In this document: in pieces, positions 30,171-43,903 of the stretch | How the letters are laid out: every line of letters begins with the position of its first letter | How positions within the stretch are numbered: the first letter of the stretch is position 1 | Source: Paludibacteraceae bacterium | GTDB taxonomy: Bacteria > Bacteroidota > Bacteroidia > Bacteroidales > Paludibacteraceae | Reading direction: 5' to 3' | Assembly: GCA_024401455.1 (NCBI GenBank) | Contig: JAKSLA010000024.1 | Coordinates: 1-44,368 of the forward strand | Length of the DNA: 44,368 bases | Notes under the pieces: model-generated | What the model saw: the letters and a program-made list of their open reading frames with translations, nothing else | The model's database searches: none | What the model was told of the DNA's origin: nothing | Translations under genes and position numbers: made by a program

Positions 30171-31505
30171 TTATAGACTTGGTAAACTCATACCCGTGAT
30201 TTTGCGGTAGAGGTCGAGGGCATAGATGTCTGTCATGCCTGAGATGTAATCCAATACGGCCAAAATCTTCGTGTAGGGATCTTGGGCATCCCATTCGTAT
30301 TGTTCTGGGATTCGAGCCAGAAGTTGTTTCGAATAAGCCTTTTCTGCGTCAAAAACGGCATTGATCTCTTTGTCAATCAGCGTATAAATGATGTTGTAAC
30401 CTGCAATCTCTATATCCACCACATCTTTCGATTTGTAGATGCGTTTCAAAGAGAGGTCAACAATCTTTTGATAAGCGTTGCGCACCTGTTCGTTCATACA
30501 ATCAACTAAAGAAGAGGTGAAAGTGCCCGATAAAATGGCCTCTTCGTTTTCGATGAAGACGCGGGAACACTCCTCGATCAAAACACCTACTACGCCTGAG
30601 CGGAGATAGGCAATTTGCTCATTTACATCAGTGACGGCGAGCATTGTCTCCCGTTTCCTTCGTTGCTTTTCCTCTGGGAAGAAATTCAAGAAGAGTTGTT
30701 TGGTCTCCTCGCTGCTGACCAATTTCAGTTTGTGGGCATCCTCCAAATCCATTATTTCGTAACAGATGTCATCGGCGGCTTCCACCAGAAAGACCAATGG
30801 ATGGCGGGCATATTTGTATTCGTCCAACTTCAAAAGTCCCAAGTCATCGGCAATTTTGACGAAATCCTCGCGCTCGCTTTGGAAGAAACCGAACTTCGTT
30901 TTCTTCTTGTTTACGACATAATCCGATTGGTAGGGATATTTGACGATGGAGGCTATCGTCGAGTAGGTGAGGACGAACCCTCCTTTGCGTCGTCCTGCAA
31001 ATTGGTGTGTCAACAGGCGGAAGGCGTTGGCGTTGCCTTCAAAGTGAATGATGTCGTTCCACTGGCTGTCTGTCAATCCATAGCGAGATTTTAGACATTG
31101 GCCGTTACCTTCCGAAAAGTACGATGAAATGGCGGTTTCTCCCGAATGGCCGAATGGCGGATTGCCCATGTCGTGGGCCAAACACGCAGCCGAAACGATG
31201 GAGCCGATTTCTGCGATGAGCGGTGCTTTCTCCTTGCCATACTTATCAATCAAATGTCTTGCTACATTGTTGCCCAAGGAGCGACCTACGCAAGAAACCT
31301 CCAGACTGTGCGTCAAGCGGTTGTGGACGAAGATGTTGCCCGGCAGGGGGAAAACCTGCGTCTTGTTCTGCATTCTGCGGAAAGGAGCAGAAAAGATCAA
31401 ACGGTCATAGTCGCGTTGGAAGTCCGAGCGGTCTTGGTTCTTCTCGTCGTGATAGTGTTCCAATCCAAATCGTTTGGTGGAGATTAGTTTTTCCCATTTC
31501 ATCAT
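30171..31505 (-). CDS. dgt: Deoxyguanosinetriphosphate triphosphohydrolase
   Basis: A 444-residue HD-domain dNTPase that splits dGTP (and possibly other dNTPs) to deoxynucleoside and triphosphate. Metal ligands are visible: H66 in NRLTHSLEV, H111-D112 in CLAHDMGNPPFGHSGE, with H120 close by, plus a later EAADDICYEIMDLED carrying the distal Asp. FSAPFRRMQNKTQVFP is the conserved N-terminal motif. Length fits bacterial Dgt homologues. It has its own promoter (31548-31576). It probably helps dNTP homeostasis; no defence genes flank it. Confidence 0.93.
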   Translation of the reverse strand: MMKWEKLISTKRFGLEHYHDEKNQDRSDFQRDYDRLIFSAPFRRMQNKTQVFPLPGNIFVHNRLTHSLEVSCVGRSLGNNVARHLIDKYGKEKAPLIAEIGSIVSAACLAHDMGNPPFGHSGETAISSYFSEGNGQCLKSRYGLTDSQWNDIIHFEGNANAFRLLTHQFAGRRKGGFVLTYSTIASIVKYPYQSDYVVNKKKTKFGFFQSEREDFVKIADDLGLLKLDEYKYARHPLVFLVEAADDICYEIMDLEDAHKLKLVSSEETKQLFLNFFPEEKQRRKRETMLAVTDVNEQIAYLRSGVVGVLIEECSRVFIENEEAILSGTFTSSLVDCMNEQVRNAYQKIVDLSLKRIYKSKDVVDIEIAGYNIIYTLIDKEINAVFDAEKAYSKQLLARIPEQYEWDAQDPYTKILAVLDYISGMTDIYALDLYRKITGMSLPSL

Positions 31506-39877: not shown

Positions 39878-41200
39878 CTACATGATGGCTTTCACATATC
39901 TCTTTAATTTATAGGCTAACGGGAGAGGTATTGAAAGCAAATTGTTTTTAAACGACAGATCTGTATTGGCAATTCGGATTAAACGGTTGGGCGAGTATTT
40001 ATCGGAGTATGATTTCAGACTTTGTCCGGATAGATTGGTGCCCGCTTTCACTTCTATCGGATAAATTTCCGTGCCAAACTGAGATACGAAGTCTATTTCT
40101 GCGATTCCGTTGGAGACCCAATAGTACGGATCGCATTCTAAGTTTGGCAATATCGACTGCAAAACGTAGTTTTCCGCTATCGCTCCTTTTGTCTCTGTAA
40201 ATGCAAGAGAATCGGACAAAAACACCTCTGCAGGAAGTTTACATAACACTCTCAGTAAGCCGCAATCCACAGCATAAACCTTAAAAGAAGAAAGTTCTCT
40301 ATATGCACTTAAAGGCAAGGCTGGTTTTGAAACACAACTTACAATATTGATCAATCCTGCATTCTGCAGCCAAAAGAGTGCGTCTTCATATTCTCGTGCC
40401 CTTGCTCCGCTTTTTATCGCTTTATAAACAAACTTTTTGTTTTCTTTTGCCAGTTGTGATGGGAGACTATTCCATAACTGCGTTATTCTGATGACTTCTG
40501 TGGATGATGCATATTTCGAGAAGTCGGCCTCATACATCTCAAGGATGTTCTTAAGTTCATTCTCAATCAAATCATATCTTCCGTTTATTAGGCGCAATAC
40601 AGCCTTTGGCATTCCTCCGCAGATCAAATATTGTCTGTATCTGTCGTTTAGTTTTGTCAATACTGCGACGGGAAGATTTTCCGCTTTATCGTTATCTTCT
40701 ATCCATTGCCAGATCATTGGTTCTGTGGTATGTAGGAACTCTCCAAATGTGATGGGATACATTTGCATCACTTCGACCTTCCCTACCGGAACGGTCATGT
40801 TTTTATGCTTTATTGCTACACCTAACAATGAACCAGCCGCTATTATATGAAGTTCTGGCATCAGTTCCGCAAAATATTTCAAACTGTTTAAGGCATATTC
40901 GTTGGCTTGAATCTCATCAAAAATCAACAACGTCTTTCCGACTTCAATTTTTATGCCTGTGTATAGTTGTATCTCTTCGATTATACGTTTGGGGTCTTTG
41001 CTCCGTTCAAAGATTTCACAGATATCTGGCTGCATATCGAAATTTATCTCTACGACGTTGCTGAAGTGATCTCTGCCAAATTTCCTCATTGTCCAGGTCT
41101 TTCCAATCTGTCTTGCCCCTTTAAGAAGAAGAGGATATCTTTCGGTCCTGTTTTTCCATTCGATAAAATCGTTTATTATGTATCTTTGTATATCTTCCAT
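39878..41200 (-). CDS. AAA ATPase with C-terminal DUF4143 domain (full length)
   Basis: A 440-residue protein of the AAA_14 + DUF4143 family, highly multiplied in Bacteroidota and archaea. Walker A is LLLKGARQIGKTWTMRKFG (P-loop GARQIGKT near 29-36), Walker B TLLIFDEIQANEYALNSLKYF, sensor-like IIAAGSLLGVAIK, and the C-terminal nuclease-like WVSNGIAEIDFVSQFGTEIYPIEVKAG carries D...E-x-K of a PD-(D/E)XK fold. Function unknown; proposed roles include DNA or protein remodelling. Its promoter region holds four 33-bp-period repeats. A truncated relative lies at 43655. Confidence 0.88.
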   Translation of the reverse strand: MEDIQRYIINDFIEWKNRTERYPLLLKGARQIGKTWTMRKFGRDHFSNVVEINFDMQPDICEIFERSKDPKRIIEEIQLYTGIKIEVGKTLLIFDEIQANEYALNSLKYFAELMPELHIIAAGSLLGVAIKHKNMTVPVGKVEVMQMYPITFGEFLHTTEPMIWQWIEDNDKAENLPVAVLTKLNDRYRQYLICGGMPKAVLRLINGRYDLIENELKNILEMYEADFSKYASSTEVIRITQLWNSLPSQLAKENKKFVYKAIKSGARAREYEDALFWLQNAGLINIVSCVSKPALPLSAYRELSSFKVYAVDCGLLRVLCKLPAEVFLSDSLAFTETKGAIAENYVLQSILPNLECDPYYWVSNGIAEIDFVSQFGTEIYPIEVKAGTNLSGQSLKSYSDKYSPNRLIRIANTDLSFKNNLLSIPLPLAYKLKRYVKAIM

Positions 41201-41223: not shown

Positions 41224-41231
41224 CAAAAGTA
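41224..41231 (-). promoter_or_regulatory. Predicted -7 box of the AAA/DUF4143 gene
   Basis: TACTTTTG fits TAnnTTTG, 23 nt upstream of the ATG at 41200. The -33 region, 20 nt further up, is the TGTG of the nearest 33-bp repeat, so the repeat array abuts or overlaps the promoter. Confidence 0.55.
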
Positions 41232-41247
41232 TGAATTTCTATGGTAT

Positions 41248-41366
41248 TTTACACATTTTCCTAACCTGTTTTTATGGGAATTTACACATTTCCCTAACCT
41301 ACTTTTGCATTATTTTACACATTTTCCTAACCTAATTTTGTAGAAATTTACACATTTTCCTAATCT
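41248..41366. repeat. Four direct repeats, 33-bp period, upstream of the AAA gene
   Basis: The 20-bp core TTTACACATTTTCCTAACCT starts at 41248, 41281, 41314 and 41347, exactly every 33 bp (single mismatches in copies 2 and 4). The 13-bp intervals vary but tend to contain a T-run. The array ends at an inverted repeat GCCGTT-ATATCG-AACGGC (41367-41384). Nothing else is seen in the 349 nt between the flanking genes apart from the promoters. Confidence 0.9.
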
Positions 41367-41487
41367 GCCGTTATATCGAACGGCTTATCCTCCATTTGAT
41401 GAGATGCTCTATGGCAAGATCAAAACCATATTGATTTTCTGTATATCCCAATTGAAAAAAACAGTGGGTAATATGAAAAAAAATAGT

Positions 41488-41515
41488 TACTTTTGGATGT
41501 ATGCAGAAAGCATAC
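41488..41515 (+). promoter_or_regulatory. Predicted -7 box and hairpin before the small Cys-rich protein gene
   Basis: TACTTTTG (41488-41495) fits TAnnTTTG; a perfect hairpin GTATGC-AGAAA-GCATAC (41499-41515) lies at the expected start of the transcript. Confidence 0.45.
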
Positions 41516-41549
41516 CATTAGAAAATATCACACAGAAAAAACGGATTGA

Positions 41550-41873
41550 ATGAAAATAACAATAAAAACCACAGCCGTTATCTTTTTGTTAATCATTGGC
41601 ATACAGACGGCCAATGCTCTGGATGCCCAGCAGACAGGCAGAAAGAATGTGACCAAAGACGGCAAGCAATACGTTGAAACCAAGAACAGGAACAAGGAGA
41701 CGGTGTATTACTGCAAAGGCAGTAAAGCCTACGCCTTCCACCTCTACCGGGATTGCAGTGGCTTGAACCAGTGCAAGAGCGATATTGTGGAAATGCAGCA
41801 GAAGGCAGCGCAGGACAGCACCCGAAAACGCTGCAAGAACTGCTGGAACAGGTTGCAGAAGGAAAAAAAGTGA
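41550..41873 (+). CDS. Small secreted Cys-rich protein, Ada-like metal-binding motif
   Basis: A 107-residue protein with a signal peptide (MKITIKTTAVIFLLIIGIQ, cleavage near ANA). The mature part has YYCKGSKAYAFHLYRDCSGLNQC and ends in RKRCKNCW. The spacing of Cys/His (C...H....C....C...CxxC) recalls the small Ada-like zinc-binding or disulfide-knotted domain seen at the ends of some phage and secreted nucleases. No catalytic domain is attached. Function unknown. Confidence 0.65.
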   Translation: MKITIKTTAVIFLLIIGIQTANALDAQQTGRKNVTKDGKQYVETKNRNKETVYYCKGSKAYAFHLYRDCSGLNQCKSDIVEMQQKAAQDSTRKRCKNCWNRLQKEKK

Positions 41874-41977
41874 GGGATTTTTTGAAAATAATCTTGCTTA
41901 TGACACTATTTGGCAACATCTCATGCTAATTTAGCGCACGCATAATTCATTATGGTTAAACTAAAAATTAAAGGCTT

Positions 41978-42550
41978 ATGAAAAGAGTTTTGTTCATATT
42001 CATCAGTTTGATGATTTGTGTTTGTGGCTACAGTCAAAAGCACATGAAGTTCCAAGGCATCGAGATTGACGGCACAAAGAAAGAGTTTGTTGACAAATTG
42101 ATTAAGAAGGGTTACAAGTATGTAGGACCGGCTGACAATATGGAAATGCTAAGTGGAACATTTACAAGCAAGAAAGCCATAGTTGCAGTGACATCGAACT
42201 CAGACAACAACGTCATTTCTGTTGGCGTCATGTTGCCAGAAAAAACGGAGTGGAAAGCCCTTGTAAACGAGTATAACTATTACCAAAACCTATATTCTCA
42301 GAAATATGGGATGCCAGTAGAAGTTAATGAAAAAGATGGCTCTGGTACCGACGACAATTACATCAAGATGATGTCGTTGGGAAATGGCGAAACGGAATGG
42401 GAATGCTGGTTTGAGACAGAAGAAGGCGAAATACTCTTGAGCATAAAAGGTAGCAAAGGAATTATTGACAGATCAGGTCACATCATAATAATGTATCGAG
42501 ACAAGACCAACTTCTTGGAGAACCAGAACAAGGACATTGATGATATCTGA
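41978..42550 (+). CDS. Secreted protein of unknown function
   Basis: A 190-residue protein with a signal peptide (MKRVLFIFISLMICVCGYSQ). The mature part starts MKFQGIEIDGTKKEFVDKLIKKGY, a pattern I have seen in secreted Bacteroidales proteins of unknown role. It is mixed alpha/beta, has no Cys pairs of note and no catalytic motif. It starts 104 nt after the small Cys-rich gene on the same strand. No function can be given. Confidence 0.65.
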   Translation: MKRVLFIFISLMICVCGYSQKHMKFQGIEIDGTKKEFVDKLIKKGYKYVGPADNMEMLSGTFTSKKAIVAVTSNSDNNVISVGVMLPEKTEWKALVNEYNYYQNLYSQKYGMPVEVNEKDGSGTDDNYIKMMSLGNGETEWECWFETEEGEILLSIKGSKGIIDRSGHIIIMYRDKTNFLENQNKDIDDI

Positions 42551-42699
42551 TTTGAAGTTTATGATCAAAGAAAAAACTTAAGCTGTCTGATAAAATGTGT
42601 ACTTTGGCGTTGTGTATGTTGGTGGTCTTGCAAAGGATGGCAAGAAAGAATGAATACAAGTTCGAACTCCAAGATGACAGCCTAAGAAAATAATTTCAT

Positions 42700-42707
42700 T
42701 AATTTTG
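42700..42707 (+). promoter_or_regulatory. Possible -7 box before the gene at 42824
   Basis: TAATTTTG fits TAnnTTTG, but 117 nt of leader and no -33 box make it tentative. The 273-nt gap around it holds no supported gene. Confidence 0.25.
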
Positions 42708-42823
42708 CCACACTATTGGCAGGGGGCGAAATGCCTATGTGGTTATCATTCGAAATATGCATGTTAGATAATCAGCTGACTCTCTTTTGATTATAATTTA
42801 TCGAACTCACGTTTATATATATT

Positions 42824-43237
42824 ATGAAAAGAATAATAACGTCAATATATGCTTTACTAATTTCTATGATTTATGTGAATGCAGTAAGCAATTCTTATGA
42901 CTACTCTGTTTCAATGGTTTCAGGAGGAAGGTATGAAATAGTACAATCATACAATCACTTCCTATATACCTTCAAACTTGATAAGCGAACAGGAAAAGTA
43001 TGGAGACATCGCCATCGATATGAAGAGGGAGCAGGACTACCTATTTGGGTAGAAACTCGCCGTCAGAATGAAGTAGCAGATAGTAAATATGTGGAAGGTG
43101 ATAATTTCCAACTGTTTATAGGGGAATTGGGCATATATCTGCTTGATGTAAACAATGGAACAACTTGGCGTTTTTACGACCATGATCGCTACAAATTAGA
43201 TATAGATATGTGGATAGAAGAATCAAATGTCAAATAG
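42824..43237 (+). CDS. Small secreted protein of unknown function
   Basis: A 137-residue protein with a signal peptide (MKRIITSIYALLISMIYVNA). The mature part has YTFKLDKRTGKVWRH and YLLDVNNGTTWRFYDH, two related strand-turn-strand units in which DxxTGxxW recurs, so it may be a minimal beta-propeller or beta-sandwich. Function unknown. It is AT-rich like its neighbours. Confidence 0.6.
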   Translation: MKRIITSIYALLISMIYVNAVSNSYDYSVSMVSGGRYEIVQSYNHFLYTFKLDKRTGKVWRHRHRYEEGAGLPIWVETRRQNEVADSKYVEGDNFQLFIGELGIYLLDVNNGTTWRFYDHDRYKLDIDMWIEESNVK

Positions 43238-43273
43238 AATAAGGGGAGAAAATCAATCGGGATGAGGATGTAA

Positions 43274-43340
43274 GAGGATGTAATTTAAACTTTGTATTTG
43301 ACGTTTTGTTTTGTCTTGACACAGTTTAGATTACATCCTC
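43274..43340. repeat. Large inverted repeat with 18-bp arms
   Basis: GAGGATGTAATTTAAACT (43274-43291) and AGTTTAGATTACATCCTC (43323-43340) pair at 17 of 18 positions around a 31-nt spacer. It lies 36 nt after the small secreted protein gene. It may be a transcript hairpin or the remnant ends of a mobile element. Confidence 0.75.
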
Positions 43341-43541
43341 TAAATATACCAAATTTGTTGCGGAAATGGATAGAAATGCTCGAATTTTTGTCCATCGCAG
43401 TGCCAAGTGCCAAGTGCAAAAATATTAAAAGTGCCCCCCTTCCCCAAGAATGGTATGGTTGGGGATTAAACCTTATCCGAATGATCAGTGTTCATTTCCC
43501 GAAGCGTTGAAGTGAACCATTAAGCACCGACTTGCTTGTTG

Positions 43542-43625
43542 TTCCGTTGAAAAAATGTAATCTTAGGGCGGTTATTCCGTTGAAAAAATGTAATCTTAGG
43601 GCGGTTATTCCGTTGAAAAAATGTA
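43542..43625. repeat. Direct repeats, 33-bp period, upstream of the truncated AAA gene
   Basis: Units start at 43542, 43575 and 43608. The first two are identical over all 33 bp; the third keeps 18 bp (TTCCGTTGAAAAAATGTA). The array ends 29 nt before the ATG of the truncated ATPase at 43655. Confidence 0.92.
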
Positions 43626-43654
43626 GAATTGTAACTTAATTCTTTGTGATTCAA

Positions 43655-43903
43655 ATGGAAAGGTACTTGTATAAAGAACTGGAGAAATGGAGTTGTTCGG
43701 AAGGTAGAAGACCATTGGTGCTGTTTGGTGCAAGACAAGTGGGTAAGACGTGGCTGCTGAAGGAATTTGGCAGTCGCAGATACAAGAACGTAGCTTTTGT
43801 CAGTTTTGACCGCAACGATGCGGCTGCCCAACTTGTGACGTCCGAAAAGTCGGCAGAGAAACTACTGAGAGGCTTGTCTGCCAAAGCACGAAGAGTAGTG
43901 TGA
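43655..43903 (+). pseudogene. Truncated AAA_14/DUF4143 ATPase (N-terminal fragment)
   Basis: 82 residues from ATG 43655 (MERYLYKELEKW). It keeps the family's Walker A (PLVLFGARQVGKTWLLKEFG) and the following VAFVSFDRND, then ends at a TGA after LSAKARRVV. Walker B, sensor, DUF4143 and nuclease-like parts are all missing, and I see no continuation in another frame downstream. It corresponds to about one fifth of the gene at 39878-41200. Most simply, it is a remnant of a second copy; expression of the short P-loop peptide is not excluded. Confidence 0.8.

Follow-up and report, generated by a model that had tools for sequence, protein, structure and literature searches.

Repeat arrays upstream of PDC-S01 ATPase–nuclease genes: putative operators of the genes they precede

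Two arrays and their genes at a Paludibacteraceae locus

Contig JAKSLA010000024.1 of a Paludibacteraceae bacterium (assembly GCA_024401455.1), analysed over positions 1 to 44,368, a stretch hereafter called the window, carries two genes of the AAA_14–DUF4143 family, each preceded by a tandem array of direct repeats. The intact gene (39878..41200, minus strand) encodes an ATPase–nuclease of 440 aa, recognized by its open reading frame (ORF), by Pfam AAA_14 and DUF4143 matches and by a PADLOC match to PDC-S01 (E 1.1e-156). Upstream of it, four 33-bp direct repeats (41235..41366, minus strand) each combine a conserved unit, AGGTTAGGAAAATGTGTAAA, with a more variable linker; Tandem Repeats Finder reports this array at 41235-41363, with period 33, 3.9 copies and a score of 153. 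The array ends 35 nt from the ATG of the intact gene, and the score of 60 that this gene's array obtains compares with 18 for the top of 100 dinucleotide shuffles. A Bacteroidota-type -7 box read from the sequence, TACTTTTG (41224..41231, minus strand), lies 3 nt past the proximal array edge; we take TAnnTTTG to be the Bacteroidota -7 element. The second array (43538..43625, plus strand; unit GTTATTCCGTTGAAAAAATGTAATCTTAGGGCG, 33 bp × 2.7 copies, Tandem Repeats Finder score 169, 98% matches) stops about 30 nt short of the ATG of a remnant of a second PDC-S01 gene (43655..43903, plus strand), whose 82 aa match the N-terminal part of AAA_14 only (Pfam; PADLOC PDC-S01 E 3.8e-24). Just these two arrays score above 50 among 16 Tandem Repeats Finder rows for the window.

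An initial annotation had placed the four repeat starts of the first array at 41248, 41281, 41314 and 41347, positions borne out by a minus-strand pattern search, and had noticed an element GAAAAxxTGTxA shared by the two arrays, which is real and fits a clade-wide core, AAAA[AG]TGT[AG]. Allowing at most two mismatches, the unit of the first array occurs in its own genome (90.3% complete) only in that array, and an exact match to an 18-mer of it is absent from the viral contigs searched. Having no further genomic copy, the unit is likely to have its own gene as its target.

An AlphaFold model of the intact ATPase (pLDDT 89.6, pTM 0.90) reveals a predicted winged-helix domain at about residues 233-311 (40268..40504, minus strand), with helices at 257-263 and 268-280 and strands after them, 268-280 being the predicted recognition helix. 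The assignment is our reading of the modelled secondary structure; together with a covariation peak described below, it marks this domain as the likely DNA reader. Across 40 aligned proteins G33, K34, D95, E96, E383 and K385 are invariant and D370 nearly so. We assign these residues to Walker and PD-(D/E)XK motifs, and their conservation suggests that the window protein is probably an active ATP-dependent nuclease. A Foldseek search gives the archaeal AAA+ ATPase SSO1545 as the best fold match (PDB 2fna; E 2.1e-7, TM-score 0.42 on the query), although the two proteins differ widely in sequence (11% identity), followed by clamp loaders, Orc and DNA-bound Orc1 structures; 2v1u and 2qby match at E about 1e-5, with low TM-scores of 0.26 and 0.24 on the query. 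We know of no function for SSO1545.

Enrichment, spacing and promoter position across the family

PDC-S01 is a PADLOC candidate phage-defence gene for an ATPase with a PD-(D/E)XK domain. The accessible text of PMC12988326 ranks it fourth by commonness among the defences of prokaryotes as a whole, adding that most PDCs of the core defensome still await experimental validation; according to that of PMC13356809, no other single locus is as frequent in rumen genomes. Within the window's phylum, Bacteroidota, 33 of 61 surveyed genomes hold a DUF4143 match. Our first gene set drew on genus relatives, 80 named multi-phylum loci similar to the window ATPase, the phylum survey, viral contigs and the order, giving 269 processed genes, with 234 kept after removal at 85% identity or more; the controls were 189 other ORFs, neighbours from loci L001-L123 (some within operons), with one rule applied to both groups. 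The survey covers non-archaeal members of the family, the evidence is comparative throughout, and phylogenetic dependence is partly handled. Genes dropped for want of a Walker motif were L007, L013, L135, L182 and L191, and also L223, L225, L242 and L291 (frame picked); L204, L227 and L297 were dropped for a short upstream region, and L202, L213, L214 and L422-L427 were left out.

An array with a helical-turn period precedes 125 of the 234 family genes but only 3 of the 189 controls (Fisher p 7.5e-37, a value that overstates independence because the genes are related), and of the three control arrays at least the 33-bp one in L098 resembles a coding repeat. A dyad stands in place of an array in 36/234 family genes versus 9/189 controls, so that array or dyad is present in 161/234 versus 12/189; arrays of other period are found in 3/234 and 2/189. 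Genes collected afterwards from the order, class and families form a second set (L372, L410 and L412 dropped, 3 of 185; 182 processed, 142 kept by the same 85% rule), in which 100 of the 142 non-redundant genes have an array. Both sets thus show the enrichment that the initial annotation had made the check on its proposal of a family-specific cis-regulatory array. Eight annotated plasmid or phage records include six with period 32, 33 or 66 at shuffle p about 0.01, one with period 32 at p 0.02 and one weak case with period 66 at p 0.07. Among plasmid matches, records of about 98 kb (H23-H31) carry a PDC-S01-like gene in several Bacteroides and Parabacteroides species, and on a Glaesserella parasuis plasmid (L321) the ATPase gene lies immediately 5' of a type III restriction-modification methyltransferase.

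The association was also examined from the side of the repeats, by scanning 444 kb of the window's genome (the window plus 400 kb) for any array of period 15-80 scoring at least 26. Six arrays have a period of 22, 33 or 34, and each of the six precedes an AAA_14 gene; the distance to the ATG is 33-56 nt for five, and the sixth belongs to the window remnant. Two 21-bp arrays fall within mechanical open frames of at least 100 aa; an open frame alone is no proof of coding, because three of the six AAA_14-linked arrays also lie in such frames. An intergenic 23-bp tandem repeat, TTGTGGTCGCCCCTTTCTTTTTT (L150:16270-16357), has no DUF4143 gene beside it.

The exact 33-bp period claimed by the initial annotation holds for both window arrays, and across the family it gives way to a small set of values, mostly 33, 32 or 34 and sometimes 20-24. 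Among 130 non-redundant arrays scoring at least 18 within 260 nt upstream, the period is 33 in 78, 32 in 29, 34 in 5 and 20-24 in 8, the other ten being 40, 41, 44, 46, 51, 65 (two), 66 (two) and 78; none of the 130 has a period of 25-31 or 35-39. This avoidance of half-turn spacings points to a protein bound on nearly one face of double-stranded DNA. A coding repeat, considered as a general cause because the 33-bp arrays of L006 and L014 run through an open frame, is ruled out by the periods of 32 and 34 that occur elsewhere. Copy number has a median of 2.8 and reaches 10.6 within the 260 nt examined, and it can change quickly, as the array spans 6.7 copies in L079 and 2.9 in L074, genes whose products share 99% amino acid identity. 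Such a difference would suit phase-variation tracts, in which copy number sets promoter strength with no cognate binder; we nevertheless judge this very improbable, given that the periods hold to helical turns, that dyads are present where arrays are missing and that the units covary with a protein domain (below).

Within the clade of the window ATPase, adjacent copies agree at 0.75-0.97 over about 21-22 bp of the unit and at 0.5-0.7 over the remaining 11 bp or so, chance being 0.31 for both. A variable left part joined to a fixed core, [CT]GnTnnnAAAA[AG]TGT[AG], fits 68 of 91 units of this clade and, in a pooled set with a slightly different cut, 109 of 183; within one protein clade the core is common across phyla. 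In several genes the repeat unit is itself a dyad. One clade, to which many top matches of the phylum survey belong, shows just one dyad, of the form TTATACAA..TTGTATAA, immediately 5' of the ATG. L189 and L190 carry the palindrome TATTGAGTAAATTTACTCAATA, and L009, a gene of the window's genome whose protein start resembles theirs, repeats the half-site TTGAGTAAA directly with a period of 22 bp (read by eye). We also considered the array start as an edge of homology between relatives. The edge is sharp in some close pairs (L249-L248, L195-L063 and L024-L001), but block start does not track array start over all such pairs (Spearman -0.22, n 49), and we make no claim of it. For L001, a gene that has moved, an empty-site comparison located the downstream flank on another contig of a relative, without the other flank beside it, and gave no boundary.

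The elements lie at promoters. The 3' end of the array is at a median of -38 from the ATG in the 130 arrays, and, of the 114 same-phylum genes that have an element, 83 also have a TAnnTTTG box no more than 80 nt from the ATG, versus 10.5 expected by shuffling. In 63 of these 83 boxed genes the element overlaps the core promoter, with a median of 2 nt from box to element end (quartiles -14 and 15), a position suggestive of autorepression. Regular repeats adjoining a nuclease gene might instead act at the RNA level, either in leader structures or as arrays of CRISPR-like or guide type, but with an element end this close to the -7 box most of the element would, in many genes, lie upstream of the transcription start, and we find an RNA role barely credible. 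A CRISPR or guide array in particular was rejected, as the linkers are not unique spacers and the half-unit outside the core agrees at 0.67 versus 0.31 by chance.

Unit sequence follows the protein

The window's genome (3.27 Mb) has 21 DUF4143 matches, and the 19 genes among them with a usable start comprise 13 with a direct-repeat array, four with a dyad and two with neither at the thresholds of the family survey. PDC-S01 is the best PADLOC match for both window genes and for nine of ten paralogs examined in this genome. A truncated DUF4143 gene (L007, G000:C91; 225 aa, no Walker motif) seems to retain an upstream repeat, AGAAAAGTGTAA, like the window remnant. Between paralogs the array units vary, with a mean pair similarity of 9.91 versus 9.87 for a shuffled null (13 genes): units are common to protein relatives in other genomes and unrelated among the paralogs of one genome. 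Correspondingly, unit similarity follows protein identity, with a Mantel correlation of 0.398 in 89 genes (best of 500 permutations 0.166), 0.258 in 123 genes (best of 300 permutations 0.132), 0.174 in 91 genes within the window clade and, as a value without permutation, 0.273 in 93 later genes. The suggestion that each copy has its own specificity, made from the window's two arrays, is therefore supported.

To locate the part of the protein concerned, we correlated sliding protein segments with unit similarity, conditioning on the remainder of the protein sequence. Among 85 segments of 20 residues scored in 91 genes, the top one is 266-285 (0.149), which spans the predicted recognition helix 268-280, remains top at word lengths 10, 14, 18 and 20 and has a familywise p of 0.007 under free permutation. 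When permutation is confined to protein clusters, p is 0.007 and 0.003 at segment 266-285 itself. Replacing the unit by a 30-nt leader drops the segment to rank 77 of 85, and coding stretches taken from the gene start and from position 700 each recover the residues that they encode. In the later 93-gene set, for which the segment was preset and permutation was free only, the six segments with the highest correlations all belong to the winged helix, with starts at 261, 251, 256, 266, 246 and 236. The preset segment comes fourth of 85 (p 0.002); a word length of 10 places it fifth, and one of 18 fourth.

Taken together, these comparisons make the ATPase's own winged helix most likely the putative reader of the array, and recognition by the ATPase itself, one of two possibilities in the initial annotation, gains support from covariation in two gene sets. 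The other possibility, that a host transcription factor reads the arrays, would suit elements located at promoters. One factor is, however, unlikely to read all the units of one genome when those of its paralogs are unrelated, and on this ground we reject a single host factor for all arrays; clade units with a common core across phyla, and the covariation with the ATPase winged helix, argue against host factors more generally, and we regard such a reader as quite improbable.

A putative operator and its relatives

We consider each array to be probably a putative cognate operator by which the ATPase–nuclease encoded after it controls its own expression, and from the patterns above we infer that the protein binds its array, that binding represses the gene and that release acts as a trigger. 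The protein would combine an AAA+ ATPase, a winged-helix domain reading a site of about 22 bp and a PD-(D/E)XK nuclease domain. With sites spaced at about three helical turns (33 bp) or two (22 bp), or arranged as a dyad, several protomers could align on nearly one DNA face across the core promoter. An occupied array would shut the promoter and keep a potentially harmful nuclease low, and lost occupancy would release nuclease expression. Each paralog would have drifted to its own sequence, so that even numerous copies in a genome could escape cross-regulation; a gene and its array would be inherited or transferred as a pair.

Several results weigh against this proposal. Neither element is found at the thresholds used in 70 of the 234 family genes (175 of the 189 controls), although the best period is still 32-34 in 24 of these 70, versus 3.2 expected; one subfamily has the single dyad and no array; and arrays of up to 10.6 copies exceed what repression needs. 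A first pass of the segment scan (43 genes, 30-residue segments), made ahead of the structural model, peaked at 301-330 (0.180), then at 256-285 (0.169), partial correlations are small (0.13-0.16), and permutation within protein clusters gives familywise p of 0.066 and 0.076 in the first set. The coding control at 700-733 also lifts the 266 segment (0.123, rank 6 of 85), so that adjacent protein regions cannot be told apart completely. Two attempts at residue–base mutual information gave no winged-helix excess (9 of the top-50 pairs versus 9.0 expected); the top-25 residues include five in the winged helix versus 4.5 expected, all of them in the recognition helix (269, 271, 273, 275 and 276). 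Lastly, the array of the truncated gene shows no more than average similarity to those of its nearest N-terminal relatives, and prediction of that array from those relatives was unsuccessful.

Two initiator systems share features with these arrays. Plasmid iterons consist of roughly 22-bp direct repeats recognized by the Rep initiator encoded next to them, which can also control its own gene; here too direct repeats stand beside the gene of a putative reader, but the modal period is 33. Orc1/Cdc6 proteins are replication initiators without a nuclease domain. At haloarchaeal orc1/cdc6 genes, according to the accessible text of PMC3528665, repeats (origin recognition boxes, ORBs) directly adjoin each gene and match within a protein family. 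The likeness lies in linkage-specific repeats beside genes for proteins of AAA+ and, here by prediction, winged-helix architecture, the units here tracking the protein and not the genome; the PDC-S01 family differs in its nuclease domain, in having up to 21 DUF4143 matches per genome and in elements placed at promoters. The ATPase might accordingly read its own array mainly for assembly or holding, as with ORBs or iterons, with phage DNA or proteins releasing a stored or loaded nuclease. The predicted Orc1-like AAA+ and winged-helix fold, the linkage-specific repeats reported for orc/cdc6 and ORBs (PMC3528665, accessible text), the periods of 22 and 33 and the longest arrays, which extend past the core promoter, all speak for such a site. 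The overlap with the core promoter in most boxed genes (63/83) speaks against it, and the median of 2.8 copies suits an operator; we therefore hold assembly as the main role to be unlikely, though with an appreciable chance.

The operator proposal has a parallel in RptR of E. coli defence islands, which in the accessible text of PMC12255303 binds direct repeats over its own promoter and represses it. Here too the repeats overlap the promoter of the gene for the presumed reader, in the boxed genes counted above. RptR is, however, a small, dedicated single-domain helical repressor (homologues 79 aa) acting on 6-bp palindromes in 9-bp repeats (PMC12255303, same text), whereas the present protein is an AAA_14–DUF4143 protein of 440 aa with predicted sites of roughly 22 bp at 33-bp intervals; here, moreover, the presumed effector is itself the likely reader, with a private code per paralog.

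Three further observations come from the window and its genome. Between the two window arrays (41550-43237) lie three small genes without Pfam matches, whose first residues resemble secretion signals. An imperfect dyad of 59 bp spans -88 to -30 of L021 (G000:C87), a gene of another candidate defence family, PDC-S27, to which the upstream-element rule may extend. The same genome has a CRISPR-like array (L159:10236-10714; G000:C27, about 30236-30714) whose 37-nt repeat, GTCGCAGACCAACTTCCATTAAAACAAGGATTAAGAC, recurs at intervals of 73-77.

In the literature searched, which takes in few subscription journals and preprints, we found no description of arrays upstream of PDC-S01 or DUF4143 genes and no account of what PDC-S01 binds or does. 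The accessible texts of PMC12988326 and PMC13356809 mention no array, operator or regulation for PDC-S01 and no antiviral test of it, and the word 'promoter' is absent from the main text of the former. What appears to be new here is a presumed effector ATPase–nuclease with a private, helically phased putative operator array, in a very large family.

A more far-reaching reading, which we think distinctly unlikely, is that PDC-S01 proteins are self-addressed ATPase–nucleases, each assembled, like Orc1/Cdc6 on its ORBs, on a private array, where the parked complex would be the sensor. Phage proteins or DNA that strip, titrate or remodel this complex would release the nuclease activity along with expression. 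Each array would on this view serve as an inbuilt tripwire, and diversified protein–array pairs would allow some twenty independent tripwires per genome. For the operator proposal, the arrays supply many PDC-S01 proteins with a predicted DNA target next to their own gene, which makes binding, regulation and triggering directly testable. An array can also aid the finding and annotation of PDC-S01 genes, and the many diverged helix–site pairs of the family may provide natural material for studying DNA specificity in winged helices.

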